Of a stretch of DNA of 62,094 nt, positions 713 to 60,374 are shown piece by piece (the stretch's first letter is position 1; every line of letters starts with the position of its first letter). Source of the stretch: Akkermansia sp. (GTDB lineage: Bacteria > Verrucomicrobiota > Verrucomicrobiia > Verrucomicrobiales > Akkermansiaceae). The stretch spans positions 1 to 62,094 of the forward strand of contig JAFQGF010000043.1 in NCBI GenBank assembly GCA_017415555.1, written 5' to 3'. The notes below the pieces were generated by a model. The model worked only from the letters and a program-made list of their open reading frames with translations. It was not told the origin of the DNA and did not search any database. The position numbers and the translations under genes were made by a program.

Positions 713-2761
713 ATGCCACGTCTCACCGAAAGTCGTCCGGGTCGCCTACTAGGCATCCTCTTAGCCCTGCTCTGGGTAGCCTCCATGTCCGTAGCGGACT
801 CCAATGCCTGTACCCTGGCACCACTGCTCTGGGCTCTGTCGGCGGTAGCTGTCTGCGGCTGCATCTGCATAGGCATCGGCTATAAAGTCGTGCGACTGCC
901 CCTCACCGCCTGGCTGGGGCTCCTCGGGGGGGGATATTACCTGGTACGAGCCCATCTGGGCTTCAGCCAAACGGATAACTGGAGCGACCTGGGCATCGTG
1001 CTGGGTGGCACCATCTTCTACGTGGCGGGACTGTATAGCGGGCAGAACCGAAGCAGCCGTGGCGTTGCGCTGGTGCTGAGCATCGCCATTCTCCTCAACA
1101 TAACGGCCATGGTACTGATGCAGCGGGGCGACATCAGCCTGAACTGGCTGGGGCGGCCGGACACCGCTCTCACCGGATCGAACAGCCGCAACACCAGCCT
1201 CTTTATCTACAAAAACTTTGCCGGTTTGTTTCTGAGTGCTGCCGGCATGCTTCTGGTCTGGCGCAGCATCTGGAAATCCACCCGCACATGTGGCAACATT
1301 CTCTGCGGCGCCACGGGCGTCATCGGCGTAGCGGCGGCATTTTTCTGCAACACGCGTGTTGTCTTTATCGTCCTGCCGCTCATGTTCACTCTCGGCTGGA
1401 TTCTCTGGCTCATTATCCGCCTGTACGACAAACGACCACTCAGCTGGGGCATTATTCTGGGCGGGCTGCTGCTGCTCACCGGCGGATGCATAGCCGTGTA
1501 TGATTTTCTCTTCGAGCGCAGCCTGCTGGATTTCATCAGCCAGACAGACACCCACCAGCGCTCCCTCGTGTGGGATCACGTCTGCCGCGCCGCCGGCAAT
1601 GCGCCGCTCTGGGGCTATGGCCCCGGTGGTGCGGTGTGGGAAATCGTCCCCGCATACCCTGAGGGCTGTCTGCCCAATGCCGCACACAACGAGTACCTGC
1701 AACTGTGGGCGGACTACGGTCTTATCGGCCTGAGTCTGGCTCTGCTGTTACTGTTGCTGCACATCATACAGGCCATTCGCGCACTTGCCTGCGACGAGCT
1801 CAGCGAGGAGCGCCGTCTGCGTACGGCTCTGGCTATGCTCGGATTGGGAGCACTGGCTTCTGCGGCGGCATCTGACTATGTGTGGCACAGCTTCGCCCTT
1901 ACCGCCATGAGTGCCTTCTGTTGCGGCACAATGGCTTCCCCCATACCAACCGCGCCGCCCCGCTCCCACAGACATGCGCGGCATAGCAACACTGCGCGTA
2001 TCGGAGTCCGTGCACAGGGGCTTGCCGGGCGTATTCTGATAATCTCATACGGACTGTTTCTTGCATACTGCTGCGGCCGCCTCGCCCACACACTTACCCC
2101 CACCTGGCTCAAACAGTGGCAGTACGATGCCATGGTAAGACAGCAAGCCGCCCCGGAAGAACAGCGCCGCTTCCTCCTGGACGCGCTGCAGGATTATCCC
2201 CACTTCCGCATCACTGACCACTTCATCACCCTCGCACCACGCCAAGAGCCGGATTGGGCGCGCTACGAGCAAGGGCTTCACACAGTGCTTGCCGCCAACC
2301 CGCGCCAACTCTACACCGCCTCCATCCTGGCCCAGATTCTCACCAGACAACAACGCTTTACCGAGGCCGAGCTGGTATACCGCCGGTACTATCCCGGCGA
2401 CGGCCCGGCCAACGTACAATTCGCCCAATGGGCCACCTTCTACGCAGCGCACCTCCAGAAATGGGGGCACCACGTGCTTGCCACCACGGATGACATCGGC
2501 CTGGCCTATTCCATCCTGGCCCATGCCGAAGCCATTGCAACGACCAAAGGCGGCTACATCCCCGGTGCCATGTACCGCTCCGGCCCCCGCACCTGGACCC
2601 AGGGAGGCTCCGACCGGGAACGAGCCCTGCAAAAAAGCTACAGACGCGACCTGCAATTACTGCACGCCATCAACCCGGAGAAAAACGACTCCTGGAAGCA
2701 GCCCCTCACCCCCGGCGGTAAACCTGCCCTCTACCAACGCTACCGGAAAACAGAAAAATAA
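713..2761 (+). CDS. O-antigen ligase/polymerase family membrane protein (Wzy_C type)
   Basis: A 682-aa protein. Residues 1 to about 430 hold roughly a dozen hydrophobic segments. Between segments around residues 280-350 lies a large loop with R282-SLVWDH, the glycine-rich GYGPGG and AHNEYLQLWADYG (H325), the signature of the WaaL/Wzy_C O-antigen ligase family. Members join undecaprenyl-linked glycans to lipid A core, or to protein, on the periplasmic side of the inner membrane. From about residue 435 to the end the protein is soluble and helical, resembling the TPR-like tails of some PglL/Wzy_C members. No glycan biosynthesis genes lie beside it, so the acceptor cannot be named. The ATG at 713 is supported by the promoter just upstream. 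Family confidence is high; precise role is open. Confidence 0.85.
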   Translation: MPRLTESRPGRLLGILLALLWVASMSVADSNACTLAPLLWALSAVAVCGCICIGIGYKVVRLPLTAWLGLLGGGYYLVRAHLGFSQTDNWSDLGIVLGGTIFYVAGLYSGQNRSSRGVALVLSIAILLNITAMVLMQRGDISLNWLGRPDTALTGSNSRNTSLFIYKNFAGLFLSAAGMLLVWRSIWKSTRTCGNILCGATGVIGVAAAFFCNTRVVFIVLPLMFTLGWILWLIIRLYDKRPLSWGIILGGLLLLTGGCIAVYDFLFERSLLDFISQTDTHQRSLVWDHVCRAAGNAPLWGYGPGGAVWEIVPAYPEGCLPNAAHNEYLQLWADYGLIGLSLALLLLLLHIIQAIRALACDELSEERRLRTALAMLGLGALASAAASDYVWHSFALTAMSAFCCGTMASPIPTAPPRSHRHARHSNTARIGVRAQGLAGRILIISYGLFLAYCCGRLAHTLTPTWLKQWQYDAMVRQQAAPEEQRRFLLDALQDYPHFRITDHFITLAPRQEPDWARYEQGLHTVLAANPRQLYTASILAQILTRQQRFTEAELVYRRYYPGDGPANVQFAQWATFYAAHLQKWGHHVLATTDDIGLAYSILAHAEAIATTKGGYIPGAMYRSGPRTWTQGGSDRERALQKSYRRDLQLLHAINPEKNDSWKQPLTPGGKPALYQRYRKTEK

Positions 2762-2834
2762 GCTCCCGACAAGCATTTTCCGGCACACTCCGACAAGAAA
2801 GTGTCAAAAAATGCACCTGTCATGCGTTTTGAGC

Positions 2835-2865
2835 TTGCATTAGTAAAAAAAAAGTGCATTATAAG
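2835..2865 (+). promoter_or_regulatory. Probable promoter of the Pro/Ala-rich protein gene
   Basis: TTGCAT at 2835-2840 and TTATAA/TATAAG at 2859-2865, spacer 18-19 bp and A-rich. A leader of about 30 nt to the ATG at 2904 is expected. Confidence 0.4.
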
Positions 2866-2903
2866 AATAGTCCGCTTTGCGGTTATAGACTTTACTGACT
2901 GAT

Positions 2904-3740
2904 ATGAGCACACCTCCTCCGCCACCTTCGCCTGTTCGTCCGGTGCCCCCTGCAGCCCCGGTGCCTCCTTCCGTGCCCCGTCCGGCGGCTCCCGTCCCCC
3001 CCACACCTCCCGGAGCGGCGCCCACGCGTCCCGTTCCGCCCAGACCGGCTAGTGCGCCTGTGGCTCCTGTGCCCCCCTCTCGTCCGGTAGCAGCTACCGT
3101 ACCGCTCAGTGCCCCGGTACCCCCGGCACGTCCCGGAGCCCCCGTACCGCCGCGTCCTGCTGCTCCTGCCGCCCCCGGTGCACCCGTACCGCCGGCAGCC
3201 CCGGCACGTCCTGCTGCCACTGTACCGCTCAGTGTGCCCACACGCCCTGTAGCCCCCGGAGCTCCCAAGCCTGCGGCTCCGGCAGCCCCCGCGGCACCGT
3301 CCGCCCCGGCCACTCCGGCAGCACCGGCAGCCAAACCCGCAACTCCGGCGGCACCTGCAGCCAAGCCCTCTGCCACAGCTGCCATGCCCTCGGCAACGGT
3401 TCCCGTAGGCAAGCCCGGTGGCTTCACCAAGCCTGCTGGTTTCACCAAGCCCGCCGGCTTCGGTAAGAAAGCAGCAGAACCCGTGGAAGAGGAAGAGCCC
3501 CAGAAGGACAGCCCCGTGCTCACCGTACTGGCTTCGCTTGCTCTCATCATTGTGGGTCTGATGTGCTGGGTACAGTACCAGACGGATCAGGTTCCCGGCC
3601 GTGTGACGGATGCTGACCGCGTGTTCGGTACCCCCGCTGCTCCCGGTGAAGACGCCGCTGATGACTCCGGCTACTCCGACGAAGCTTCTTCCGAGGAATC
3701 TTCCGGCGATGAAGAGAGCTACGCTGACGAGGAAGAGTGA
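2904..3740 (+). CDS. Proline/alanine-rich single-pass membrane protein, unknown function
   Basis: A 278-aa protein of strongly biased composition. Residues 1 to about 165 are almost entirely Pro, Ala, Val, Thr, Arg and Gly in short repeats (PVPP, PAAP, APAA). Three tandem KPAGF-like repeats follow near 168-188, then an acidic patch, one transmembrane helix at about 203-224 (SPVLTVLASLALIIVGLMCW), and an acidic Glu/Asp/Ser tail. There is no N-terminal signal, so the long proline-rich part is probably cytoplasmic and the acidic tail extracytoplasmic. No enzymatic motif is visible. The thioredoxin gene starts 44 nt downstream and may share the transcript. The low complexity suggests a tether or scaffold, which is inference only. 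Confidence 0.75.
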   Translation: MSTPPPPPSPVRPVPPAAPVPPSVPRPAAPVPPTPPGAAPTRPVPPRPASAPVAPVPPSRPVAATVPLSAPVPPARPGAPVPPRPAAPAAPGAPVPPAAPARPAATVPLSVPTRPVAPGAPKPAAPAAPAAPSAPATPAAPAAKPATPAAPAAKPSATAAMPSATVPVGKPGGFTKPAGFTKPAGFGKKAAEPVEEEEPQKDSPVLTVLASLALIIVGLMCWVQYQTDQVPGRVTDADRVFGTPAAPGEDAADDSGYSDEASSEESSGDEESYADEEE

Positions 3741-3784
3741 TTTTTTTGAACAAATAGAAACTCATCTGAATCTAAGCAAGCACT

Positions 3785-4102
3785 ATGGCATTACAGATTA
3801 CAGAAAGCAACTTCGAGGCAGAGGTTCTCAACTCCCCCGTTCCGGTGTTGGTGGACTTCTGGGCAACTTGGTGCGGCCCCTGCCGTATGATTTCCCCCAT
3901 CGTGGATCAAGTCGCCACTGAAATGGCCGGCGTGGCCAAGGTCGGTAAGGTGAATGTGGACGAAGCCGGTGCCCTGGCTACCCGCTTCGGCATTAAGAAC
4001 ATTCCTACCCTTATCTTCCTCAAAAACGGCGAAGAAGTGGACCGCATTACCGGCGCCACCTCCAAGGACAACATCATCGCTCGCCTGAAGGCCTGCCTCT
4101 GA
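3785..4102 (+). CDS. trxA: Thioredoxin
   Basis: 105 aa, the normal length of a classical cytoplasmic thioredoxin. The redox motif WCGPC is at W29-C33, preceded by the conserved VLVDFWATW strand. The buried aspartate is D24 and the cis-proline is P74 in NIPTLIF. It reduces protein disulfides using electrons from thioredoxin reductase, which is not in this window. The gene follows the Pro/Ala-rich gene by 44 nt. A TTGAAC (3746-3751) with a poor -10 17 bp later could give a separate start of transcription. It ends before a strong terminator at 4128-4165. Confidence 0.96.
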   Translation: MALQITESNFEAEVLNSPVPVLVDFWATWCGPCRMISPIVDQVATEMAGVAKVGKVNVDEAGALATRFGIKNIPTLIFLKNGEEVDRITGATSKDNIIARLKACL

Positions 4103-4127
4103 TACGCAGACTGCAAAAATCCCTTCC

Positions 4128-4165
4128 ATCGCGGCAAATCGGGTAACGGTTTGCCGCGATTTTTA
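4128..4165 (+). terminator. Rho-independent terminator after trxA
   Basis: Perfect 11-bp stem ATCGCGGCAAA (4128-4138) with TTTGCCGCGAT (4150-4160), followed by TTTTT. Confidence 0.9.
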
Positions 4166-4215
4166 TGCCCGATTTTCATATTCCTACAAAATTAGAAGAC
4201 ATACACATTTTCAAG

Positions 4216-4244
4216 TTGACTACAGGAGGAATCGTTACTACAAT
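4216..4244 (+). promoter_or_regulatory. Promoter of the PIN/ankyrin gene, with a long leader
   Basis: TTGACT at 4216-4221, 17-bp spacer, TACAAT at 4239-4244. Transcription should begin near 4251, leaving about 110 nt before the ATG at 4362. This is an unusually long leader for this window. It contains a 7-codon frame (ATG 4348 to TAA 4371) that overlaps the start codon. Confidence 0.65.
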
Positions 4245-4361
4245 AAGCGCGCAGACGGGAAAAGACCATCGAGCTGAGCCGCTTATATTATATCATTCAC
4301 CGAAGCCCGGCGCAGCACTTTCCCACCCACCCAATAAAACCACATACATGACCAAAACACC

Positions 4362-5873
4362 ATGGAAGTAACACCCACCGAAACAGAACTCCACCCGCTC
4401 ACTCATTTTGACGCGGTATACATAGATGCCTGTACCTGGATGGCTCCCGAGATAGAAACCCTGCTGCAACAGGCGGCTCCCGCCCTGCGCAGCCGCGGAC
4501 AACAGCTCATCATGACGTCAGGCGTGCTCAACGAGCTGGAAAACTGCGCCCCCGTCAAGTATGCCGCACAGACGGCCCTCAGAATCCGGGAGCGTTATCT
4601 GGACTACATCCTTACAGAGAATACCCCCATAGCCGCCAATACGGCAGATGGTGAGTTCGTGCGCCTTTTCTTCTTCAACCACCGCAAACGTCGGCAGCTT
4701 CTCATCACCCACGACCAGCAACTCGCAGCGGACATCCAAAACATCTGCCGCTGCAACGAGGACGAGGAAAACCCCACCGCCGTCATGACACTCTGGTCGG
4801 ATGGCAGCCTCATCACCTTTGCAGAACAGGCACGCCGCAAGGAGCAGCAGGCCCGTGTGCGACTGGAAGAAATGGTAGGCAACAGCCCGCTGTATATAGA
4901 CAGCTCGACACTCTGCGATGAAAAGCTCAGCGACTTCCTGTACAACATTTCTATCCCCATGCAGGCACAGGAAAAAGCTATTCGCCTGGTATCCAACAGC
5001 CTCCGCCCCGAGCTGCAAGACACCTTTACCTCCGCCCGGGAAAGCTACCCCGGACTCCTGCAGGTTCTTGACACCGACTCCACCATGAGCGAGACGGACG
5101 CCCTTCTCGGAGCACTGTACCTCACCCCGGACAATATGGACGCTGAGCGCCTTATCCTCGTGACCTCCGATGTAGCGAGAGCCAACGACCTGCGCGCCCG
5201 CCGCCCCAAATGTGACCGCTTCCCCTATGTGGACTTCATGGTCATCAATAAGTACGGCTTCCTGAGCTACCTGAAGCTCTCCGAGCCGACCGCCCCGGCC
5301 GGTGAGCGCAAACCCCGCCCCCTCCCCCTTCCCCGCCCCAAGGCGATTCAGCAAGTCCCAGCAGAGCGCAAACCCACAGCCTTCATTCCCCAACTCATCG
5401 GAGCCATAAAAAACGACAACATCGAGGACATGTGCTACTTCCTGGCTAAGGGGGCTAATCCCCGCAACGGCATCATCACCGCCCTCTGCCAGGAGAAAGA
5501 TTCCTGCCTGCGAGCCCTGCTGGAAACGACACCCGGCAATATCGAGGCGGGAGCTCTCAACTGGTGGGTCATCGATTACAACGCCTTTGCCGAACCGGAC
5601 TACCTCGCGCACAACGACGAGCACTTTGCCCTGCTGTGCAAGCTCATCGAGAAATCTGAGCCCCTCACCGCCTGCCAGCTCATGATGATGACACTGGCAG
5701 ACCGCGTCGGCGCACCGAATGCCGCACATGAGCGACTCTGGCACATCATCCGCCTGGCTCTGCAAAAAGGAGCCCCGGCCGCAGTCTATTCCCGCGCAAC
5801 CGGCGAAACCCTGCCTGAAATCGCGCGTCGACAAGGCAATACAGAGATGCTGCACTTCCTGCAAAGCAGGTAA
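4362..5873 (+). CDS. PIN-like domain protein with C-terminal ankyrin-like repeats
   Basis: 503 aa, no signal peptide. The N-terminal part resembles a PIN ribonuclease fold: an early acidic residue after a hydrophobic strand (VYIDACTW, D22), then MTSGVLNELENC near 50-62, then LLITHDQQLAADI near 115. A similar strand-Asp pattern recurs at about 265-285 (LILVTSDVARANDL), so there may be a second PIN-like half. A proline-rich linker (about 315-330) leads to a region from about 340 with ankyrin-like features: LIGAIKNDNIEDMCYFLAKG, later GNTEMLHFLQSR. PIN domains are usually metal-dependent RNases, many of them VapC-type toxins, but no antitoxin-sized gene lies beside it. Function is inferred from fold resemblance only. 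Confidence 0.6.
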   Translation: MEVTPTETELHPLTHFDAVYIDACTWMAPEIETLLQQAAPALRSRGQQLIMTSGVLNELENCAPVKYAAQTALRIRERYLDYILTENTPIAANTADGEFVRLFFFNHRKRRQLLITHDQQLAADIQNICRCNEDEENPTAVMTLWSDGSLITFAEQARRKEQQARVRLEEMVGNSPLYIDSSTLCDEKLSDFLYNISIPMQAQEKAIRLVSNSLRPELQDTFTSARESYPGLLQVLDTDSTMSETDALLGALYLTPDNMDAERLILVTSDVARANDLRARRPKCDRFPYVDFMVINKYGFLSYLKLSEPTAPAGERKPRPLPLPRPKAIQQVPAERKPTAFIPQLIGAIKNDNIEDMCYFLAKGANPRNGIITALCQEKDSCLRALLETTPGNIEAGALNWWVIDYNAFAEPDYLAHNDEHFALLCKLIEKSEPLTACQLMMMTLADRVGAPNAAHERLWHIIRLALQKGAPAAVYSRATGETLPEIARRQGNTEMLHFLQSR

Positions 5874-5900
5874 ACAGACAAGACAGGAAACGTTTGGACA

Positions 5901-5948
5901 GGAAGTATCGAGTTCGGCGGATAGGCTGAATACTCGATACTTCCTTTT
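5901..5948. terminator. Bidirectional terminator between convergent genes
   Basis: Perfect 13-bp inverted repeat GGAAGTATCGAGT (5901-5913) with ACTCGATACTTCC (5932-5944), followed by TTTTC. It lies between the PIN/ankyrin gene and the convergent hexosaminidase gene. Confidence 0.75.
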
Positions 5949-5956
5949 CTTCCCTC

Positions 5957-7597: not shown

Positions 7598-7605
7598 ACC
7601 AACGT

Positions 7606-7634
7606 ACCCTACACGAGATTAGTACATAAGTCAA
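7606..7634 (-). promoter_or_regulatory. Promoter of GH20 gene (leaderless type)
   Basis: On the minus strand TTGACT (7634-7629), 17-bp spacer, TAGGGT (7611-7606), then 8 nt to the ATG. Confidence 0.55.
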
Positions 7635-7642
7635 ACTAAGAA

Positions 7643-7671
7643 TTGACGAATGACGCGCGAAAGGTTACAAT
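7643..7671 (+). promoter_or_regulatory. Promoter of ahcY (leaderless type)
   Basis: TTGACG at 7643-7648, 17-bp spacer, TACAAT at 7666-7671, then 10 nt to the ATG at 7682. A TTG at 7643 in frame with ahcY is part of the -35 box and so cannot be the translation start. Confidence 0.75.
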
Positions 7672-7681
7672 CTCTCCCGAC

Positions 7682-9612: not shown

Positions 9613-9640
9613 TTGACGCGGACGCATGCACGCGTAAAAT
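9613..9640 (+). promoter_or_regulatory. Promoter of htpG
   Basis: TTGACG at 9613-9618, 16-bp spacer, TAAAAT at 9635-9640, then 27 nt to the ATG at 9668, so a leader of about 20 nt. No clear Shine-Dalgarno sequence is seen. Confidence 0.6.
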
Positions 9641-14264: not shown

Positions 14265-14293
14265 TTGTCGCGGGCAGATTTTTTTCTTAGAAT
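14265..14293 (+). promoter_or_regulatory. Promoter of SGNH hydrolase gene (leaderless type)
   Basis: TTGTCG at 14265-14270, 17-bp T-rich spacer, TAGAAT at 14288-14293, then 9 nt to the ATG at 14303. Confidence 0.65.
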
Positions 14294-17916: not shown

Positions 17917-17945
17917 TTGACCGGAGGGGGGTAATATGCTAGCAT
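17917..17945 (+). promoter_or_regulatory. Promoter of double-thioredoxin gene (leaderless type)
   Basis: TTGACC at 17917-17922, 17-bp spacer, TAGCAT at 17940-17945, then 9 nt to the ATG at 17955. Confidence 0.65.
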
Positions 17946-23377: not shown

Positions 23378-23408
23378 ATTATAGCAGAGCCGGGAGGGGA
23401 GACGTCAA
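23378..23408 (-). promoter_or_regulatory. Promoter of autotransporter gene (extended -10, leaderless type)
   Basis: Minus strand TTGACG (23408-23403), 19-bp spacer ending TGC, perfect TATAAT (23383-23378) preceded by the extended TGn, then 8 nt to the ATG. Confidence 0.75.
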
Positions 23409-26271: not shown

Positions 26272-26300
26272 AGCATACTCCTTTTGAGCCTGTCTGGCAA
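26272..26300 (-). promoter_or_regulatory. Promoter of the lpxR-like operon (leaderless type)
   Basis: Minus strand TTGCCA (26300-26295), 17-bp spacer, TATGCT (26277-26272), then 6 nt to the ATG at 26265. Confidence 0.65.
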
Positions 26301-26376: not shown

Positions 26377-30830
<4,454 letters not shown>

Positions 30831-30970: not shown

Positions 30971-30999
30971 TTGCCACGCCATGGCAAATGTAGTATGAT
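30971..30999 (+). promoter_or_regulatory. Promoter of GHL10-type gene (leaderless type), with overlapping dyad
   Basis: TTGCCA at 30971-30976, 17-bp spacer, TATGAT at 30994-30999, then 7 nt to the ATG at 31007. The -35 box is the left arm of TTGCCA-N5-TGGCAA (30971-30987), which could be an operator. Confidence 0.7.
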
Positions 31000-33923: not shown

Positions 33924-33952
33924 ACTCTAACACCCCCGGAGCCTGTTGTCAA
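33924..33952 (-). promoter_or_regulatory. Promoter of plsX
   Basis: Minus strand TTGACA (33952-33947), 17-bp spacer, TAGAGT (33929-33924), then 30 nt to the ATG, so a real leader of roughly 23 nt. Confidence 0.65.
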
Positions 33953-34765: not shown

Positions 34766-34771
34766 GGCGAT

Positions 34772-34800
34772 ATTGTGCCTGCTGACACGCCCAGTGTCAA
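34772..34800 (-). promoter_or_regulatory. Promoter of yceD-rpmF (leaderless type)
   Basis: Minus strand TTGACA (34800-34795), 17-bp spacer, CACAAT (34777-34772), then 6 nt to the ATG. Confidence 0.65.
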
Positions 34801-34818
34801 GCGCGAAATAAAAAGAGA

Positions 34819-34847
34819 TTGCCAGGAAGGACAGAAGGCGATACAAT
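34819..34847 (+). promoter_or_regulatory. Promoter of Tat Fe-S protein gene (leaderless type)
   Basis: TTGCCA at 34819-34824, 17-bp spacer, TACAAT at 34842-34847, then 7 nt to the ATG at 34855. It is divergent from the yceD promoter, 18 bp apart. Confidence 0.7.
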
Positions 34848-34854
34848 AGAACGC

Positions 34855-38373: not shown

Positions 38374-38402
38374 AGTCTAGCACATACGCCCCGCCACTGC
38401 AA
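38374..38402 (-). promoter_or_regulatory. Promoter of nnr (leaderless type)
   Basis: Minus strand TTGCAG (38402-38397), 17-bp spacer ending TGTGC, TAGACT (38379-38374) with extended TGn, then 7 nt to the ATG. Confidence 0.65.
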
Positions 38403-39965: not shown

Positions 39966-39972
39966 AGCGGAG

Positions 39973-39999
39973 GATATAACGCCACGCACCTATTTGCAA
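39973..39999 (-). promoter_or_regulatory. Possible guaB promoter, short spacer
   Basis: Minus strand TTGCAA (39999-39994) and TATATC (39978-39973) are separated by 15 bp; the -10 ends 7 nt from the ATG. The short spacer makes this weaker than the other cases. Confidence 0.35.
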
Positions 40000-40091: not shown

Positions 40092-40120
40092 TTGACTCAG
40101 GCGCATTTTTCGTGTAGACT
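40092..40120 (+). promoter_or_regulatory. Promoter of ispE (leaderless type)
   Basis: TTGACT at 40092-40097, 17-bp spacer, TAGACT at 40115-40120, then 6 nt to the ATG at 40127. Confidence 0.7.
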
Positions 40121-45364: not shown

Positions 45365-45393
45365 AATCTACAACAAAACTAGCCCTCTCGCAA
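45365..45393 (-). promoter_or_regulatory. Promoter of the kelch-kelch-MFS operon (leaderless type)
   Basis: Minus strand TTGCGA (45393-45388), 17-bp spacer, TAGATT (45370-45365), then 9 nt to the ATG at 45355. Confidence 0.65.
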
Positions 45394-45443: not shown

Positions 45444-45472
45444 TTGCCAAGGTACGGATGTTCTGCTACACT
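45444..45472 (+). promoter_or_regulatory. Promoter of the unknown paralogue pair and metK
   Basis: TTGCCA at 45444-45449, 17-bp spacer ending TGC, TACACT at 45467-45472, then 22 nt to the ATG at 45495. The leader of about 15 nt includes GAGAG before the start. Confidence 0.6.
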
Positions 45473-49778: not shown

Positions 49779-49807
49779 TTGACAAAGAGAAGCAGAGGCT
49801 GTATACT
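49779..49807 (+). promoter_or_regulatory. Promoter of prfB (leaderless type)
   Basis: TTGACA at 49779-49784, 17-bp spacer, TATACT at 49802-49807, then 10 nt to the ATG at 49818. Confidence 0.75.
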
Positions 49808-49817: not shown

Positions 49818-50925
49818 ATGGAGAACCAGACGACCAATATCGATCTCTCGACGCTTGACACGGAGGCCATGCGCAGCCGTCTTTCCGAGCTCGGGAGCTA
49901 TCTTTGACCCGGCTTCCCTGGAAGCAAAAGTAGCAGAACTCGACGAGCGCATGAGTGCCCCCGATTTCTGGGATAACCCTGCTACTGCCCGTGCCCTCAT
50001 GGCCGAGGTGAACCCCATCAAACGCCGACTGGAGGAGTTCCGCGCGCTGGAAAGCGGGCTGGAGGACATCGAAGGCGTTATCGAGATGGCCATGGAGGAA
50101 CCTGAAATTGCCGAAGAAGCCCTGGCCGAATACAATGCCTGGGTGAAGCGCCTGCAGGACTTCGAGCTGATTACACTGCTGAACGGCCCGCACGACAACG
50201 CCGGCTGCTATGTGACTATCCATGCCGGAGCCGGCGGTACAGAAGCCTGCGACTGGGCCAGCATGCTGCTGCGCATGTACCTGCGCTACTGCGAGCGGCA
50301 CGGATTCAACACGGAAATCATGGAAAGTACGGATGGCGATGAGGCCGGCATTCGCTCCGTAACCATCAAAATTGAAGGTGAATACGCCTATGGTTACCTT
50401 AAGAACGAGCGCGGCATCCACCGCCTGGTTCGCATGAGCCCCTTCGACTCTGCCGGCAAGCGCCACACCTCTTTCTGCTCCCTCGATGCCACGCCCGACA
50501 TCTCCGATGATATTGAAATCGAGGTGAAGGAAGCCGACGTGAAGATGGACACCTACCGCTCCGGCGGCAAGGGTGGTCAGAACGTGAACAAGGTTGAAAC
50601 CGCCGTGCGCCTCACCCACCTTCCGACCGGCATTATCGTAGCCTGCCAGACCCAGCGCTCCCAGCTCCGCAACCGCGAGGAAGCTATGCGCATGCTCAAG
50701 GCTCGCCTCATCCAGCTGGAAGAAGACCGCAAGCGTGCTGAGGCCGACCGCCAGTACTCCGAAAAAGGCGACATTGCCTGGGGCAACCAGATTCGCTCCT
50801 ATGTGTTCCAGCCCTACCAGATGGTAAAGGATTTGCGCACCGGTGTGGAATCCGGCAACATTCAGGACGTCATGGACGGCAATATCGATGCCTACATCGA
50901 AGGCATGCTTCGGCACAACATGTAA
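49818..50925 (+). CDS. prfB: Peptide chain release factor 2, with programmed +1 frameshift
   Basis: Translation begins at ATG 49818 and runs 29 codons to an in-frame TGA at 49905-49907. The site TAT-CTT-TGA-C with an upstream GGGAG is the classic RF2 autoregulatory frameshift. When RF2 is scarce the ribosome slips +1 on CTT and continues from GAC (49906) to 50925. The coding path is thus 49818-49904 joined to 49906-50925, 368 aa. RF2 recognises TGA and TAA; the sequence has the SPF tripeptide ([10 protein letters not shown]) and the catalytic GGQ ([12 protein letters not shown]). A GTG/ATG start in the second frame alone would drop the N-terminus. Confidence 0.97.
49893..49908 (+). promoter_or_regulatory. 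RF2 programmed frameshift site
   Basis: GGGAG (49893-49897) acts as the internal Shine-Dalgarno-like element, 4 nt before CTT (49902-49904), followed by TGA-C. This is the E. coli-type arrangement. Confidence 0.93.
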
Positions 50926-52013: not shown

Positions 52014-52042
52014 TTGCATAAAATAGGGGCGTCCTGTATAAT
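52014..52042 (+). promoter_or_regulatory. Promoter of the M23-ompA-uvrD operon (leaderless type)
   Basis: TTGCAT at 52014-52019, 17-bp spacer, perfect TATAAT at 52037-52042, then 8 nt (alternating GC) to the ATG at 52051. Confidence 0.75.
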
Positions 52043-52050
52043 GCGCGCGC

Positions 52051-54374: not shown

Positions 54375-56362
54375 ATGGCACGCTGAGCCCGGCCATCAGC
54401 TCGCGTGACTATGCCGCGGAGCTCAACCCCGAGCAGTACGCAGCCGTCGCCACTGACGCCCGACACGCGCTGATTATAGCCGGTGCCGGCAGTGGCAAGA
54501 CGCGCACTCTCACCTATCGGGTTGCACGGCTGCTGGACGCCGGCGTAGCGCCCTGGCGCATTCTGTTGCTCACCTTCACCAATAAAGCAGCCCGGGAGAT
54601 GCTGGAGCGAGTAGCGCAGCTCACCGGCCAGAACAGCTCGCAGATATGGGGTGGCACCTTTCACTCGGTGGCCAACCGCCTGCTGCGCCGCCACGCCGAA
54701 CGACTCGGCTACCGCCCCGGTTTCTCCATCCTGGACAGCGACGACCAGCGCGCCCTCTTCCGTGCCCTCGTCAAGCAATTCTCCGCTAAAGGCGGCAAGA
54801 GCGACCGCTTTCCCAAGCCGGAGGTATTACTGGGGCTGCACAGCCTGGCCATCAATACCGGGCGCAGTTGGCAAGACACACTCTCCACCGACTACGCACA
54901 CCTGGAACGCTTCGAGGATACCATTGGTCAGATTTTTGATGCCTACCGCACCCGCAAAATGGAGAGTAACTCCATGGACTTTGACGACCTGCTAACCAAT
55001 CTGGTACGCCTGCTCAATGAACATGACGATGTACGACGTGACCTGCAGGAGCGCTTCCAACACGTGCTGGTGGATGAGTACCAGGACACCAACACCCTGC
55101 AGGCAGAGCTCATCACCCTGCTCTCCGGTGGTGCTGCCACCTCCCTTATGGTGGTAGGGGATGATGCGCAGAGCATTTACTCCTGGCGGGGAGCCAACGT
55201 AGACCACATTTTCAACTTTACCCACAGCTACCCGGACGCACAGGTCTTCAAAATCCAGACCAACTATCGCAGCGTGCCCGCCATCCTGGATATTTCCAAC
55301 GCAGCCATCGCGCAGAACACCCGCCAGTTTGCCAAAACCCTCATCCCCGCACGCGAGGAAGGCAGACTGAAGCCAGCCGTTGTTCCCACCCCGGACAACC
55401 GCATGGAAGCCCGTTTCGTGGCTCAGCGAATCGATGAGCTCATGGGAGCCGGCATACCCGGCAAAGATATCGCCGTTCTTTACCGCGCCCACTTCCATAG
55501 CATGGATGTGCAGATGGAGCTTTCCCGCAACCACATCCCCTACCGCATTACCAGCGGCCTCCGCTTCTTCGAACAGGCACACATCAAAGACATTGTGGCC
55601 TGGCTCCGCCTGCTCACCAACCCCAGGGATGAGGTGGCTTTCCGCCGCATTGTGGGCACCTTCCCCCGTGTGGGAGATGCCACCGCCACCAAACTCTGGC
55701 AGGGCTGGCTGGCCACTATGGAAGCCTGGCAGGCAGCCAATCCCGGGACAGAACGTCCTACGGATTCCTACACCTCCATCATGCAGAAACTCAGTGTCCC
55801 CACGGCTGCCAGACCGCACTGGGCGGGATTCCTGGCAAATCTGGACAACCTGCACCCGGAGGATTGCGAACTTACCCCGACAGAGCTCGTCAAACTCGTA
55901 CAGAACTACATGGACGCCTACATGCGCGCCACCTACGATAACTACGAGGAACGCATGGAAGACATAGACCAGCTCACCAAATCCCTCTCCGACATGCCGG
56001 AGCTGGAGAGCTTCCTCAGCCAGGTGGCACTACTGAGCGAAGTAGACCACAATACCGTTACGGATGACGACTGTGTTACCCTCTCCACCATTCATCAGGC
56101 CAAAGGACTGGAGTGGAAAATCGTTTTCGTCATCTTCCTGGGGGAGGGGCTCTTCCCTCACTACAAAGTAATTACCGGCGGCGACCCGGAGGCTATGGAA
56201 GAAGAAACACGCCTCTTCTACGTGGCTATCACCCGCGCAGAAGACCAGCTCTACCTCACCTACCCCCGCTACAACGGCCACAGCTACGACAGCCAGTTCT
56301 GTCCGCCATCCCGTTTCCTCACCACCCTGCCCGAGGAACTCTTTGAACTCTGGAACCTCTGA
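54371..56362 (+). CDS. UvrD/Rep/PcrA-family superfamily 1 DNA helicase
   Basis: 663 aa. It has the SF1A motifs in order: Walker A AGAGSGKT (K43), motif Ia TFTNKAAREM, motif II VDEYQDTN, motif III GDDAQSIYSWRGA, motif IV NYRS, motif V TIHQAKGLEW, motif VI YVAITRAEDQLYL. It unwinds DNA 3' to 5' in repair or replication restart. It is shorter than E. coli UvrD (720 aa) and ends right after motif VI, with no RNA-polymerase-binding Tudor-like tail. The start overlaps the OmpA-like stop (ATGA), so a DNA repair enzyme is encoded in an envelope operon. Confidence 0.95.
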   Translation: MNGTLSPAISSRDYAAELNPEQYAAVATDARHALIIAGAGSGKTRTLTYRVARLLDAGVAPWRILLLTFTNKAAREMLERVAQLTGQNSSQIWGGTFHSVANRLLRRHAERLGYRPGFSILDSDDQRALFRALVKQFSAKGGKSDRFPKPEVLLGLHSLAINTGRSWQDTLSTDYAHLERFEDTIGQIFDAYRTRKMESNSMDFDDLLTNLVRLLNEHDDVRRDLQERFQHVLVDEYQDTNTLQAELITLLSGGAATSLMVVGDDAQSIYSWRGANVDHIFNFTHSYPDAQVFKIQTNYRSVPAILDISNAAIAQNTRQFAKTLIPAREEGRLKPAVVPTPDNRMEARFVAQRIDELMGAGIPGKDIAVLYRAHFHSMDVQMELSRNHIPYRITSGLRFFEQAHIKDIVAWLRLLTNPRDEVAFRRIVGTFPRVGDATATKLWQGWLATMEAWQAANPGTERPTDSYTSIMQKLSVPTAARPHWAGFLANLDNLHPEDCELTPTELVKLVQNYMDAYMRATYDNYEERMEDIDQLTKSLSDMPELESFLSQVALLSEVDHNTVTDDDCVTLSTIHQAKGLEWKIVFVIFLGEGLFPHYKVITGGDPEAMEEETRLFYVAITRAEDQLYLTYPRYNGHSYDSQFCPPSRFLTTLPEELFELWNL

Positions 56363-56368
56363 CCGGAT

Positions 56369-57187
56369 TCAACACCTGGCCAGTTCGTTGCGCAGATTGT
56401 CCACCAAAGTTGCCACATTGGCCAGCAAATATTCATCAACAAAGATGCAGGATTCGTCTTCCACATAATCCTGGATGCATTTCCGGAAATGCTTCACTAT
56501 GGTAAGTCTTGCCATATACAACATGATGACTTTTTGCGGAGCCTGCGGGTGAGTCATATTAAGCCATTTGAAACGCATCCCGCGGAATATCGGGCTATCT
56601 TTCAAATCGTAGCAGCACAAAGCGGCACACCACGCCCTGATAAAGGCCTCCTTTTTTCCACAGGTCGCTGCAAGTTTCAACAGCCGCCGCACATCCGGCT
56701 TCATCTGCCCGGGCATCGGTGGCACCACGCAGATTCGCATCAACTCATCATTTACTCCCATCCGGAAGGTACTGACCCCCACCACGGGTCTGGCATCACG
56801 CGCCCCGCGCAGCAACACCACCAATCCATTGTCGGCAAAACTCTCTGTAGACAGCAGTTTCCGCACATATTGCCGGGCTACATGCTCATCTACCATCTTG
56901 CATTTCACAACGGCTACACCATACTCCGGCAGTGCTCCATCCACCTTCTTCTGCAGAAGCTCCGCTTCCTTCAGCACACGGCCATCATCCTCCCCGCCTT
57001 CCGGTAAAACCACCGCAGAAAACACAGGCGTCACCTCCGGCACCTCACCATCATTCAATTGCAGCACAGGACCATACGAACGACACACGGCCTTTCTCAT
57101 CACCCAACGGGGCATCAGCCGACGCAACCAAAGCGGCATCACTTCTTCCAAACTCAGTAAATCATCCTCTCTGTTTGAATTATTCAT
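56369..57187 (-). CDS. Unrecognised protein, distal gene of a two-gene unit
   Basis: 272 aa, no signal peptide, no transmembrane helix. I do not recognise the family. The N-terminal 50 residues are amphipathic and basic (LWLRRLMPRWVMRKAVCRSYG). The rest looks globular and helical with several cysteines (VVKCKMVDEHV, AAWCAALCCYDL). Its ATG overlaps the stop of the 83-aa gene (ATGA), so the two are translated together. It ends 6 bp from the convergent uvrD-like gene. The unit lies opposite a helix-turn-helix gene, an arrangement common for small accessory systems, but no toxin or nuclease motif is visible. Confidence 0.7.
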   Translation of the reverse strand: MNNSNREDDLLSLEEVMPLWLRRLMPRWVMRKAVCRSYGPVLQLNDGEVPEVTPVFSAVVLPEGGEDDGRVLKEAELLQKKVDGALPEYGVAVVKCKMVDEHVARQYVRKLLSTESFADNGLVVLLRGARDARPVVGVSTFRMGVNDELMRICVVPPMPGQMKPDVRRLLKLAATCGKKEAFIRAWCAALCCYDLKDSPIFRGMRFKWLNMTHPQAPQKVIMLYMARLTIVKHFRKCIQDYVEDESCIFVDEYLLANVATLVDNLRNELARC

Positions 57188-57435
57188 TTCCGTTCAAACC
57201 GTATGTTCACTATCTCTTTTGTCTCCGTTGTCACCTGCGGGCTCCCGGCAGTTCTCACTTCCGCCCCCTCTTCCAAAGTGGCAGAAAACAATGACTCCCC
57301 TTCTTCCTTTTTGCCACCGGTCATTTGCAAATCGACAGCCTGGGCTACCGCCGCCACAAGCGGTAATCCGCAGGCTCGACACGCTGCATCCAGCATCGCC
57401 AGTTCATAGGCACTCAATTTGATTGTATATTCCAT
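57184..57435 (-). CDS. Small unrecognised protein, proximal gene of a two-gene unit
   Basis: 83 aa. The N-terminal 40 residues (MEYTIKLSAYELAMLDAACR) are predicted to be a short beta strand and helices, in a size and order seen in ribbon-helix-helix and antitoxin-like proteins. This is a resemblance, not a match. The C-terminal half is acidic and polar. The 4-nt overlap with the 272-aa gene and a good promoter suggest a real gene. The proximal, small partner in such pairs is often the regulator or antitoxin; that remains inference. Confidence 0.6.
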   Translation of the reverse strand: MEYTIKLSAYELAMLDAACRACGLPLVAAVAQAVDLQMTGGKKEEGESLFSATLEEGAEVRTAGSPQVTTETKEIVNIRFERK

Positions 57436-57453
57436 AGTATCGCCCTGCTGTAT

Positions 57454-57482
57454 ACTCTAAAATATTTTTACCCCAAAGTCAA
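57454..57482 (-). promoter_or_regulatory. Promoter of the two-gene unit
   Basis: Minus strand TTGACT (57482-57477), 17-bp spacer, TAGAGT (57459-57454), then 18 nt to the ATG, so a leader of about 11 nt. Confidence 0.6.
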
Positions 57483-57558
57483 GAAAAAGCTTGCACAAAT
57501 AGCATATTTTTACCCAACAACATCAAAAACTCCCCAAAAAACAAGATTTTCGACCCAT

Positions 57559-57600
57559 TTGACATTTAATCTTGACATGATTATATAAATATTTTATATT
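57559..57600 (+). promoter_or_regulatory. Promoter and candidate operator of the helix-turn-helix gene (leaderless type)
   Basis: TTGACA at 57572-57577, 17-bp AT-rich spacer, TATATT at 57595-57600, then 6 nt to the ATG at 57607. A second TTGACAT lies 13 bp upstream (57559), and the spacer/-10 region holds the near-palindrome ATATAAATATTTTATAT, a plausible site for autoregulation. Confidence 0.65.
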
Positions 57601-57606
57601 TTTGTC

Positions 57607-58065
57607 ATGACCATCGAGGAAATCAGAAGCGAACTCCAGAAACGAGGTATGACTCAAAAGGAGCTCGCCGCCATGCTCCATGTGCACCCCGTCACCCTCG
57701 GGCTCATTCTGATTGGTAAAAACAAGCTCACTGAACAGCTTGCGGCGCACATCGAGCTTCTCTTCGATAACATGCGACAGAACGACCCCGTCGAACATAC
57801 TCTCACCCTGCCCGAAACCGTCGTAGAACGCTGGATGCCCAGCTTCCGGACGCTCCCCGAATCTCAGCGTTCTGCCGCCATCCTCGATGTCATCCACAAA
57901 GCCGTTCATTGGCTCATCTGCGAGGGCGAAAAACAATTTACCCCTCAGGAGCTCGCCAATATCAGAGCATTCTGCGAGGCGCAGTCCAATCCCCCTGCCC
58001 CCACTCCCTATACCCAGGATGACGAGGAACCCCTCCTCTCCGCCGCAGACGGCAACGAAGGCTGA
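57607..58065 (+). CDS. Helix-turn-helix (XRE/Cro-like) protein
   Basis: 152 aa. Residues 1-55 form an HTH_XRE domain: IEEIRSELQKRGMTQKELAAMLHVHPVTLGLILIGKNKLTEQ. The turn (TQKELAAMLHV) is typical; the recognition helix is VHPVTLGLIL. Residues 60-125 are helical with no known motif, and the C-terminal 25 residues are Pro/Asp/Glu rich. It is divergent from the two-gene unit, with 171 bp between starts, so it probably regulates that unit, itself, or both. The promoter region has repeated and dyad elements. Confidence 0.82.
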   Translation: MTIEEIRSELQKRGMTQKELAAMLHVHPVTLGLILIGKNKLTEQLAAHIELLFDNMRQNDPVEHTLTLPETVVERWMPSFRTLPESQRSAAILDVIHKAVHWLICEGEKQFTPQELANIRAFCEAQSNPPAPTPYTQDDEEPLLSAADGNEG

Positions 58066-58305
58066 TTCTTTCTTCTGCTTCAACACCTTTCCCTCAGCCG
58101 CCGAAGATATCGCCTGGGGATGTTATGTACCATTTTTGCGCACGTGCGCGATGCCTGCCCGCCATCCCTATTATTTCTGCGCTCCTTCCCCATTTTCCGG
58201 GCATTCTAGCAGACAAAATATGCTCTGACAAGCGATTTTTGACGTATTAACAGGAATGATAGTCGTATTTCATACAACTTTTATAAGTTTTGTATGTTTT
58301 AGTTC
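58066..58305. other. Gene-free stretch between HTH and AP2-like genes (58066-58433)
   Basis: No convincing gene is seen. An AT-rich inverted repeat, CATACAACTT (58271-58280) with AAGTTTTGTATG (58285-58296, one extra T), is followed by TTTTAGTT and may terminate the HTH transcript. Two tandem promoters for the next gene follow at 58306 and 58395. Confidence 0.5.
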
Positions 58306-58334
58306 TTGACAGTTACCCGAATTAAACATAAAAT
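58306..58334 (+). promoter_or_regulatory. Upstream promoter P1 of the AP2-like gene
   Basis: TTGACA at 58306-58311, 17-bp spacer, TAAAAT at 58329-58334. Start near 58341, giving a leader of about 93 nt. Confidence 0.6.
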
Positions 58335-58394
58335 GCGCCCGCAATTCTTTTCCTTATCAGTTTTGGAGAGTTAGCTGTTTTCAACTAATTTGGA

Positions 58395-58424
58395 TTGCAA
58401 ACAAATGGGTCAATAACATAAAAT
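58395..58424 (+). promoter_or_regulatory. Proximal promoter P2 of the AP2-like gene (leaderless type)
   Basis: TTGCAA at 58395-58400, 18-bp spacer, TAAAAT at 58419-58424, then 9 nt to the ATG at 58434. The -10 context ACATAAAAT is the same as in P1. Confidence 0.5.
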
Positions 58425-58433
58425 AGCACCACC

Positions 58434-59378
58434 ATGAACACACGCCACATAACCAGATTCACCTACAAGTTCACGAACTTCCAGGGCTGGCGAGTAGCCA
58501 TCACGCGGCAAGGAGTAGCACTGGCGCGCTACTTTTCGGACAAGCAGTACGGAGACGAGGAGGCCGCATACACGCAGGCTATCCGTTTCCGGGATATGGT
58601 TCTTGCCGAACTGGAGGCCCACCCGGAGCAGACTCAGACCATCCTGATGAAGCACCGTGTCCAGCCGCAGAAAATGTACCCTGCGGGGCTGAAACCCTCC
58701 AACCCCTCCACCCGCAACGAGGGAAGCAGCACAGCCTGCAGCATGCGCAGCAACAAGGTGCTTCACAGCGTTCTCCGCAAGGTGTGCCACCGCCTGAAAC
58801 TGGACACAGCGAGTGTTCTAAAGCTCTCACTGTACCTGTTTACCCTTCAATACGGGAGTGCTCCCACCATGGCAGCACCTCTCTGCAAAACACAGCAACA
58901 CTACGCCGCCGGCTCCTTAGCAGAAGACAACGAGCCGGAAATGAATTTGCAGGAACTCATAGCCGAACTGGAAACCCGCGCACGCCAGGCCGGCCTGCCC
59001 AGTTTCGAAGAGTTTGCCACCGGCAACAGCCCCACTGCTGCAGCCACCCTCGCAGAGCAACACTCAGCTCCCCCGGGAAATGCCAATAGGGCCCCGCTTC
59101 CACCACCGGAAGACGAAGACGCTTTCCCGGACAACTACCACGCCGCTGCTCGCTATATGCGCTCCTCCCGACCGTCCCCGCCACCTGCCATGACTACTTC
59201 ACACCACCCTACTCATTCCACTACCCCCCATACTCACATTTCCAGGCATTTGCCACATACGAGAGATTATTCCAGTTTGTCGACTCTCGTTACAGCTGAC
59301 GATACATTGCCCCTTTCGAATAAACGTCAGACCAAAAAATCAGAGCGATGTATTCCGATATCGTCAGAACACATCTGA
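58434..59378 (+). CDS. AP2-like DNA-binding domain protein, unknown function
   Basis: 314 aa. Residues about 8-62 (FQGWRVAITRQGVALARYFS, then YGDEEAAYTQAIRFRDMVLAEL) match the AP2/ERF-like fold: three strands with a WRV core and a helix rich in Ala with RFRD. Bacterial AP2 domains occur in homing endonucleases and integrase-like proteins. No nuclease or recombinase domain follows; the middle has a short hydrophobic helix (about 125-145), and the last 110 residues are low-complexity (Pro, His, Thr, Ser). It may be a regulator or a remnant of a mobile element. Two promoters precede it, and the 326-bp gene-free stretch that follows holds possible RNA structure. Confidence 0.65.
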   Translation: MNTRHITRFTYKFTNFQGWRVAITRQGVALARYFSDKQYGDEEAAYTQAIRFRDMVLAELEAHPEQTQTILMKHRVQPQKMYPAGLKPSNPSTRNEGSSTACSMRSNKVLHSVLRKVCHRLKLDTASVLKLSLYLFTLQYGSAPTMAAPLCKTQQHYAAGSLAEDNEPEMNLQELIAELETRARQAGLPSFEEFATGNSPTAAATLAEQHSAPPGNANRAPLPPPEDEDAFPDNYHAAARYMRSSRPSPPPAMTTSHHPTHSTTPHTHISRHLPHTRDYSSLSTLVTADDTLPLSNKRQTKKSERCIPISSEHI

Positions 59379-59704
59379 CACCTCAACGGAAGCTCACAGT
59401 TTTCCCCACATAGTCAAGGTAATCCACGCACCTTTAACTGCGTCTTCATTACCTACCCATTGAACTACGCACCCCACACGGCAGAAGCGTAGCTCGCTAC
59501 CCGGGCGTACACCATACCGGCCATTGAGCAGTGTGGTGTGCGCTAGCGTTTTTCCGGGCTATCCAAGGCTCACAATGCCGACTGCATGAGCCGCTAAATA
59601 CCCACAGGAGCGGAAGGGCACAAGGCTGCACTCAGCGTCTCAATCCATAGCCAGCCACAGAGTAAGCGCACGCTCCACATAGAAAGACTTTCATACCATT
59701 GCAA
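59379..59704. other. Gene-free structured stretch, possible noncoding RNA
   Basis: No coding frame is credible here. A long imperfect hairpin spans about 59404-59475: CATAGTC, AAGGTAAT and ACGCA on the left pair in order with TGCGT, ATTACCT and GAACTACG on the right (loop CCTTTAAC). A second stem is CGTACACCA (about 59505-59513) with TGGTGTGCG (about 59533-59541), one wobble. On the minus strand the first hairpin begins GGGGTGCGTAGTTCAATGGG, reminiscent of a tRNA D-arm, but no T-arm or matching acceptor end follows. I cannot name a known RNA. Confidence 0.35.
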
Positions 59705-60337
59705 TTACCGGAGCTCTTTCATATAACGAGCCAGCCAAGGCAGCACATCCACATCTGCCGGCAACCACTCAAGCGAATAGAGTTCATCCACCGTCAACCA
59801 ACGGGCTGCCACATGCTCCCGCAGTGTCAGATTACCACCCCGCAGGGTGCACACATAGCAGTGCATGCGCAGGTGAAAAGCCGGGTAATGCCAGTTGACC
59901 GTGTGCAGAAACTGCCTGACTTCAATCTCCAGCGAGAGTTCCTCAGCTATCTCGCGCACCACTGCTGCCTCCACGGCCTCCCCCGGCTCAATCTTACCGC
60001 CCGGGAACTCCCAGCCCCCACCATGCTTATGCGGAGCACACTGAGTAGCCAACACACGCCCCTCCTCATCGAATACCAGAGCTGCCACCACTTCCAGAAC
60101 CTTTCTTTTCTCTTCCTTCATATCAAGTTCATCCTTCCCTACAAAAACAACAGCCACAATAAAAGCAAATAGCAAAGCACCTATCACCGCCCCGGCTCTC
60201 CCACCATCCAGAAAAAATCCGCCCACCAACGCTCCGCAGAGACAGGCCGAATACATCCATAGATTACAAGCACGATTGCGCCGAGCCTCAGCCAACTGGC
60301 GCCGCAGATACTCGCGCATCTTTGCCCATATTGTCAT
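59705..60337 (-). CDS. NUDIX hydrolase (MutT-like) with N-terminal membrane segments
   Basis: 210 aa from the ATG at 60337. The C-terminal 130 residues are a NUDIX domain with the box GGKIEPGEAVEAAVVREIAEEL, followed by the CTP/8-oxo-dGTP pyrophosphatase-type EHVAARWLTVDEL. The first 65 residues contain two hydrophobic segments (about 27-42 and 48-66, LWMYSACLCGALVGGFFL and AGAVIGALLFAFIVAVVFVG), unusual for a house-cleaning pyrophosphatase and suggesting membrane tethering. The promoter 8 nt upstream fixes the start; a TTG two codons earlier is less likely. Confidence 0.9.
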   Translation of the reverse strand: MTIWAKMREYLRRQLAEARRNRACNLWMYSACLCGALVGGFFLDGGRAGAVIGALLFAFIVAVVFVGKDELDMKEEKRKVLEVVAALVFDEEGRVLATQCAPHKHGGGWEFPGGKIEPGEAVEAAVVREIAEELSLEIEVRQFLHTVNWHYPAFHLRMHCYVCTLRGGNLTLREHVAARWLTVDELYSLEWLPADVDVLPWLARYMKELR

Positions 60338-60345
60338 GCGCAACG

Positions 60346-60374
60346 AATATACTATCCCTCCCCCTGATTGTCAA
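60346..60374 (-). promoter_or_regulatory. Promoter of the NUDIX gene (leaderless type)
   Basis: Minus strand TTGACA (60374-60369), 17-bp spacer, TATATT (60351-60346), then 8 nt to the ATG at 60337. Confidence 0.7.

Follow-up and report, generated by a model that had tools for sequence, protein, structure and literature searches.

Promoters abutting the start codon point to leaderless mRNAs in an Akkermansia genome poor in Shine-Dalgarno sequences

Translation initiation independent of the Shine-Dalgarno (SD) sequence is typical of the Bacteroidota, in which most start codons lack an SD and promoters and leaders are of another type. The Akkermansia DNA described here likewise has no SD at most starts, and differs in that its upstream motif is sigma-70-like and abuts the ATG. 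The DNA in question is a stretch of 62,094 nucleotides (contig JAFQGF010000043.1 of assembly GCA_017415555.1), hereafter the window, in which about nineteen genes had been predicted from sequence to carry promoters so close to the ATG that the RNA would begin at or next to it; leaderless translation had been suggested as a main mode in this lineage (the original prediction). A TANNNT motif about 12 bp before the start has been proposed as a leaderless signature in Actinobacteria and Deinococcus-Thermus (Zheng et al. 2011, PMC3160421). In Akkermansia muciniphila, Cappable-seq placed 10% of 886 transcription start sites at annotated gene starts, compared with 0.4% in Escherichia coli (PMC4782308), and a 2024 survey reported Akkermansia as SD-scarce with conserved CCUCC (PMC10783764).

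As described below, many genes heading a transcription unit carry a sigma-70-type promoter 5–11 nt before the ATG; the mRNA would very probably start about 0–3 nt from the start codon, and leaderless translation is predicted. As in the TA-led genes of Zheng et al. (PMC3160421), the TANNNT motif is read as a -10 box that leaves no room for a leader. Here, unlike there, a -35 box is also present at a spacing of 17 nt (N17) and SD sequences are scarce in the remaining genes, whereas the Deinococcus deserti control has SD 5-mers before 27–42% of genes. The A. muciniphila study (PMC4782308) concerns the same family and likewise describes -35 and -10 elements and start sites that coincide with gene starts; the portions of that report considered here give one percentage and contain no promoter-to-ATG anatomy or conservation. 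The 2024 survey (PMC10783764) agrees with our data in SD scarcity and a canonical anti-SD; in the portions considered it offers no mechanism for Akkermansia and ties SD-independence to leaderless mRNAs only in general terms. The term Verrucomicrobi does not appear in the main text of Zheng et al. or in the portions considered of two papers on non-SD starts (PMC5397173, PMC9581028). A search judged by titles and counts, with subscription journals mostly outside its reach, found no other work joining leaderless mRNA with Verrucomicrobi or Akkermansia.

The window (contig C57) belongs to a metagenome-assembled genome (MAG) of 2,018,123 bases in 65 contigs that is 79% complete. Its metK is 90% identical to that of Akkermansia sp. 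RGIG1739 from goat cecum, and in a metK tree the genome falls with strong support within a clade of 17 gut-MAG rows, all but one labelled Akkermansia or Akkermansiaceae. The window and 40 further stretches formed a genome sample of 692,965 bases; all other samples were metK and rpsU neighbourhoods or chosen stretches rather than whole genomes. Genes were called by a simple coding-potential method that chose starts without regard to upstream signals and recovered 77 of 83 annotated genes in two 50-kb pieces of E. coli, 65 of the 77 with identical starts. Among 457 genes with sufficient upstream sequence, 244 were classed as unit-first (divergent, or at least 60 nt after the preceding gene) and 135 as operon-internal (less than 25 nt after it), and 78 were excluded. 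The distance from the end of the -10 element to the ATG is termed the gap. Ortholog counts include the window's own gene.

The pattern TTG-N16..18-TAnnnT at a gap of 4–11 was present upstream of 53 of the 244 unit-first genes (100 shuffles: mean 2.26, maximum 7), an enrichment that the original prediction had anticipated. In the window alone, with promoter-blind starts, 11 of 28 unit-first genes carried it (500 shuffles: mean 0.29, maximum 4). It was absent from all 135 operon-internal genes. A two-block expectation-maximization (EM) search of the 244 genes, seeded with weak sigma-70 words and given a flat prior on distance, converged on TTG(A/C)CA-N17-TA(G/T)AAT, with N17 making up 75–76% of the model, distance peaks at gap 6 and gaps 8–9, and 71.3 of 244 genes within 4–11 nt of the start. 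Since EM with free distance drifted to degenerate motifs on E. coli and D. deserti and was discarded as evidence, a fixed motif model and an EM confined to the zone upstream of the start were used. Under the fixed model, 68.2 of 244 unit-first genes had a promoter 4–11 nt ahead of the start, compared with a mean of 4.1 (sd 1.2, maximum 7.6) in 40 dinucleotide-keeping shuffles, 1.4 of 135 operon-internal genes and 6.6 of 600 random in-frame internal ATGs. Divergent genes reached 40.8 of 112 (36%), and the window was richer (13.4/28) than the remainder of the sampled genome (54.8/216). TAnnnT occurred at gap 4–11 in 80 of the 244 genes, with TTG at N17 in 44; each of the other spacings between 8 and 28 had TTG in six cases at most. 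The motif thus comprises two hexamers resembling TTGACA and TATAAT, separated by about 17 bp, as for sigma-70, and its TANNNT, whose centre lies about 10 bp ahead of the start codon, exceeds chance, as in TA-led genes.

Within the window, all 19 of the genes originally named have TTGnnn followed by (T/C)AnnnT ending 6–11 nt before the ATG. The spacing, described as N17 in nearly all, is N17 in 17 of the 19, the exceptions being the autotransporter gene (N19) and the gene labelled AP2-like (N18); the first -10 position is C in wzy (CAGAAT) and yceD (CACAAT). Most named genes were identified by Pfam. On the plus strand, promoters precede the Pfam-identified genes for the O-antigen ligase (wzy, Wzy_C; 673..701, TTGACA-N17-CAGAAT, ATG 713, gap 11), the SGNH/GDSL protein (14265..14293, TTGTCG-N17-TAGAAT, ATG 14303, gap 9), the double thioredoxin (17917..17945, TTGACC-N17-TAGCAT, ATG 17955, gap 9), beta-galactosidase (26377..26405, TTGCCA-N17-TAGTAT, ATG 26415, gap 9), GHL10 (30971..30999, TTGCCA-N17-TATGAT, ATG 31007, gap 7), the Fe-S protein (34819..34847, TTGCCA-N17-TACAAT, ATG 34855, gap 7), the M23 operon (52014..52042, TTGCAT-N17-TATAAT, ATG 52051, gap 8) and the helix-turn-helix (HTH) protein (57572..57600, TTGACA-N17-TATATT, ATG 57607, gap 6). 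Also on this strand lie the promoters of ahcY (7643..7671, TTGACG-N17-TACAAT, ATG 7682, gap 10), ispE (40092..40120, TTGACT-N17-TAGACT, ATG 40127, gap 6), prfB (49779..49807, TTGACA-N17-TATACT, zero-frame ATG 49818, gap 10) and the AP2-like-labelled gene (58395..58424, TTGCAA-N18-TAAAAT, ATG 58434, gap 9). The minus strand carries those of GH20 (7606..7634, TTGACT-N17-TAGGGT, ATG 7597, gap 8), the autotransporter (23378..23408, TTGACG-N19-TATAAT, ATG 23369, gap 8), the LpxR-like protein (26272..26300, TTGCCA-N17-TATGCT, ATG 26265, gap 6), yceD (34772..34800, TTGACA-N17-CACAAT, ATG 34765, gap 6), nnr (38374..38402, TTGCAG-N17-TAGACT, ATG 38366, gap 7), the kelch operon (kelch1; 45365..45393, TTGCGA-N17-TAGATT, ATG 45355, gap 9) and NUDIX (60346..60374, TTGACA-N17-TATATT, ATG 60337, gap 8), all with Pfam matches, that of YceD (32.2 bits) slightly below the cut-off of 33.2. 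The names yceD and NUDIX agree with Pfam; the AP2-like-labelled gene (ATG 58434) has no Pfam match. A twentieth case, absent from the earlier list, is guaB on the minus strand (39971..39999, TTGCAA-N17-TATCCT, ATG 39965, gap 5).

For LpxR (26265, not 26319), GHL10 (31007), nnr (38366) and prfB (49818) the promoter fits a start other than that of the longest open reading frame (ORF), and for LpxR, GHL10 and nnr the shortened protein still gives the full Pfam match. Two facing near-ATG promoters lie between the divergent genes GH20 and ahcY, and two more between yceD and the Fe-S protein gene, in intergenic regions of 84 bp (7598–7681) and 89 bp (34766–34854), respectively. Five genes had also been put forward as a built-in comparison, with the same promoter type and real leaders. 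This applies to htpG (9613..9640, plus, TTGACG-N16-TAAAAT, ATG 9668, gap 27), plsX (33924..33952, minus, TTGACA-N17-TAGAGT, ATG 33893, gap 30) and gene 45495 (45444..45472, plus, TTGCCA-N17-TACACT, gap 22); rseP has no such promoter within 75 nt, and the 'merR' gene was not identified.

Transcription driven by the housekeeping sigma factor would begin at a pyrimidine-purine (YR) step, mostly 6–8 nt downstream of the -10 element. At gap 6 or 7 this step would be the CA formed by a C at -1 and the A of the ATG, giving no leader, and gaps of 8–10 would give leaders of 0–3 nt, such as GU-AUG or GUU-AUG. The ribosome would then engage the 5'-terminal AUG via initiator tRNA, without SD pairing. Strong cases from three genus samples, 118 in all, were pooled and sorted by gap. 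At gap 6, C stood at -1 in 32 of 33 genes, and at gap 7 a pyrimidine preceded the A of the ATG, forming a YR step, in eight of nine. A pyrimidine also preceded this A in 17 of 19 genes at gap 8, nine of the 19 having a YR step at +6|+7; this step was found in 17 of 24 genes at gap 9, and a YR step at +7|+8 in 9 of 12 at gap 10. The five cases at gap 4–5 were too few for tabulation. With a YR step 6–8 nt past the -10 box in most cases, leaders of 0–3 nt are expected.

Conservation among genus orthologs was strongest for guaB, where all 30 of the loci have the pattern, at protein identities as low as 72%, and spacer and upstream DNA vary. In 29 loci the site scored as N17, gap 5; the remaining one (L282) scored as N18, gap 10, with an N17/gap 5 site also present by eye. 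Directly at the promoter, all 30 loci preserve the guaB ATG together with the codons that follow it (M-A/E-E/D). For prfB, 27 of 29 loci with upstream sequence have the promoter at gap 8–12 (weak in L320, absent from L318 and L319; L300, which begins at a contig edge, was excluded). The ahcY promoter is found in 21 of 26 loci, always with N17 and at gap 9–11 (L256, without a start, was excluded); the other five copies lie 11–33 nt behind a metK-sized ORF, in loci that contain metK, and have neither promoter nor SD. In the case of ispE, 16 of 30 loci matched by the TTG pattern and three more by eye through TTCACA at gap 6–7, giving 19 of 30; a poor match in L342 was dropped from the count. Seven ispE copies closely follow a 420–423-nt ORF and have no promoter and no SD, and no such promoter was found before ispE in the three most divergent members (L348–L350). 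The beta-galactosidase and yceD promoters recur in the sole ortholog of each among the loci (L263, 80%, gap 8, and L028, 60%, gap 6, respectively). The gap of gene 45495 is 22 in the window; its three nearest relatives and L036 have a gap of 14 (by eye), and nine of 13 genus orthologs one of 8–12, so leaders come and go. No near-ATG promoter was found before metK (0/21) or gene 46460 (0/7), as expected, since both mostly follow another gene. For most other listed genes the loci yielded no usable ortholog.

SD sequences were sought as 5-mers 4–12 nt before starts and compared with control windows. Genes with near-ATG promoters were near background in this genome (3/69 vs 1.0; 4-mers 12% vs 14%), as the original prediction had held, and operon-internal genes had 3 of 135 against 8.0 in controls. 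Overall rates were 2–4%, compared with 1–6% in control windows, and the unit-first and operon-internal genes of this genome were near background, with little or no SD enrichment 4–12 nt before their starts. The same test gave 27/115 and 25/62 genes in E. coli (controls 2.0 and 1.3; 23–40% vs 2%) and 29/108 and 14/33 in D. deserti (controls 8.0 and 1.7). An EM confined to 3–12 nt upstream recovered a promoter in the genus (n = 551), whereas in E. coli (n = 118) it settled on a motif resembling AGGAG. Thus, the zone in which E. coli keeps its SD is the zone in which the genus Akkermansia keeps its -10 box. Operon-internal genes of the genus MAG loci had 0 of 66 SD 5-mers (controls 3.7), and most other samples were near controls. 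Counts above controls were obtained for operon-internal genes of order families f2-5 (4/28 vs 1.0) and Opitutia (7/77 vs 3.0) and for unit-first genes of the Chthoniobacter/Pedosphaera group (5/85 vs 1.7). With SD 5-mers above controls in several samples, some SD use may remain.

Given the little or no SD enrichment in operon-internal and other unit-first genes, start-codon selection appears largely SD-independent, despite a kept CCTCC tail in related genomes and an SD-like element in prfB. The 16S tail GGATCACCTCCTTT, with CCTCC, was present in each of the eight loci examined, out of 10 retrieved from five related genomes; the window MAG holds no 16S. S1 was above cut-off in 17 of 20 genomes, the misses being genomes 71–84% complete, the window's own among them. 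IF3 was above cut-off in 19 of 20, including the window's, the miss being a fragment at a contig edge, and bS21 (rpsU) was present in 39 of 39. There is hence no sign of lost canonical initiation proteins, and loss of S1 or IF3 as an explanation was unsupported. The prfB gene contains a programmed +1 frameshift site, GGGAG...CTTTGAC (49893..49908, plus; SD-like GGGAG at 49893–49897, in-frame TGA at 49905), and this site, CTCGGGAGCTATCTTTGAC, is kept with its SD-like element in all 29 genus loci that include upstream sequence (L291–L320). In E. coli prfB, the SD-like element pairs with the anti-SD during elongation. By analogy, the frameshift is a possible reason for keeping the anti-SD tail. 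It is conceivable, though we lean against it, that Akkermansia gave up SD pairing at start codons altogether, unit-first genes relying on terminal or near-terminal AUGs and operon-internal genes initiating without SD, with the anti-SD kept for purposes such as the prfB frameshift.

The rpsU gene reportedly keeps its SD in Flavobacteria. For the window's clade such retention was rejected, the rpsU leader being A/C-rich and without an SD; an AAGGA-type sequence precedes rpsU in the three most divergent genus members (L146, L124, L122). By eye, many genus members (L121–L144 and L146; L138 is the window genome) have an rpsU promoter about 40–45 nt upstream and a leader element near CCGTTCCCGGACAA, which could be an autoregulatory site.

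Across the samples, the near-ATG promoter class is most pronounced in this clade; the phylum samples contain it too, though weakly. Under the fixed, strict model, counts within 4–11 nt were 15.2/206 in G029, 13.4/158 in order families f2-5, 7.4/95 in named Verrucomicrobiales, 11.3/202 in Opitutia and 8.4/100 in the Chthoniobacter/Pedosphaera group, with shuffle means of 1.9–4.2 (four shuffles each) for all but the smallest sample; E. coli gave 1.6/118 (shuffles 2.3). The zone-confined EM reached no clear promoter outside the genus, so the statements on the phylum are based on the fixed model and TAnnnT counts. Outside Akkermansia, the TTG box preceding near-ATG TAnnnT has its peak at N16 instead of N17, in few cases (G029 7 vs 2, Opitutia 10 vs 0).

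Several observations weigh against the leaderless reading. The suggestion that leaderless translation is a main mode in the lineage is partly borne out: the strict model marks 28% of unit-first genes in this genome, and fewer in the complete G004 of the same genus (21.0/168, 12%), in the genus MAG loci (28.1/139, 20%) and in five samples from elsewhere in the phylum (6–8%); a small mixed set, made up of G015 and two MAGs of the sister clade (three loci), gave 1.2/14 (shuffle mean 0.3). The leaderless-rich control D. deserti itself gave only 1.9/112 (shuffles 1.0): none of its near-ATG TAnnnT boxes has a TTG box at N16–18, with TAnnnT at gap 6–9 still enriched (15 vs 4). Real leaders precede rpsU, htpG, plsX and 45495. 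The starts of LpxR, GHL10, nnr and prfB, four of the 19, were picked with the promoter in view and are therefore not counted as independent. The 16 cases at gap 11 show no preferred initiator step. C is the commonest base at -1 already in operon-internal genes (47–62% in the three genus samples), so the baseline of the initiator test is not 25% and its evidence, although strong, is not free-standing. SD 5-mers exceed controls in the other unit-first genes of this genome (7/168 vs 3.0) and in operon-internal genes of G004 (4/47 vs 1.7).

Could the promoters be products of composition, AT-rich upstream stretches mimicking -10 boxes? TAnnnT is a weak pattern and also occurs at other upstream distances of unit-first genes (about 5 of 262 genes per position), yet dinucleotide shuffles reached 4.1 against 68.2 observed, TTG sits at exactly N17 in 44 cases against six or fewer elsewhere, and the exact pattern is missing from all operon-internal genes. 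In addition, relatives conserve distance and spacing, all 30 guaB loci holding gap 5 amid surrounding sequence that changes. We consider chance extremely improbable. It is also quite improbable that the promoters are real and the genes over-extended, with true start codons further downstream behind ordinary leaders. Start calling is imperfect, as the 65 of 77 reproduced E. coli starts illustrate, and GHL10 and LpxR did require a downstream start; against this, the guaB ATG and following codons are kept at the promoter in every locus, it is the chosen ATG that is preceded by C at -1, no start class of this genome is preceded by more than little SD enrichment, and 10% of A. muciniphila start sites match annotated starts (PMC4782308).

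Near-ATG promoters might instead be secondary or minor, a main promoter upstream yielding leadered mRNA. Further promoter-like matches do lie upstream of beta-galactosidase (gap 47), GH20 (gap 35) and guaB (gap 49). By eye, the near-ATG site is nevertheless the conserved block within 42–75 nt of guaB, prfB, ahcY and ispE, and near-ATG sites make up by arithmetic about 61% of the promoter excess over shuffles within 120 nt, the range examined (44% in G004, 42% in the genus MAG loci); we regard this alternative as unlikely. For leaderless initiation from near-ATG promoters, the transcription half is strongly supported by promoter position, spacing, initiator base and conservation and by the published start sites of A. 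muciniphila (PMC4782308), and the translation half stays a prediction. Position, spacing, initiator bases, low SD and conservation were computed, and from these we infer the exact 5' ends and ribosome initiation; the published RNA 5'-end mapping concerns A. muciniphila rather than the strain of the window.

Near the contig end, the window also contains a tandem array (60465–61919) with a 375-nt unit in 3.4 copies at 91% matches, preceded by an extra 91-nt copy; it had no Rfam match at gathering thresholds.

Leaderless messages are of a kind already known, as Cappable-seq had placed 10% of start sites at gene starts in the sister species A. muciniphila (PMC4782308), and the present genome offers a clear, well-conserved case of them. 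New are its extent, anatomy and conservation, the SD-poor setting, and the natural pairs of unit-first and operon-internal genes. Genes that switch between a unit-first position, with a promoter at the ATG, and an operon-internal one, with neither promoter nor SD, are natural pairs for the study of SD-free initiation. The sequence rule (-35, N17, -10, 5–11 nt, ATG, position -1 being mostly C or T) helps to locate true starts and promoters jointly and is useful for annotation repair and for expression vectors; a classical ribosome-binding site may help little in this genus. Near-ATG promoters supply a mechanism for the SD scarcity of unit-first genes, and thereby offer a concrete account of how Akkermansia, a major gut commensal, can be SD-scarce with a normal anti-SD.

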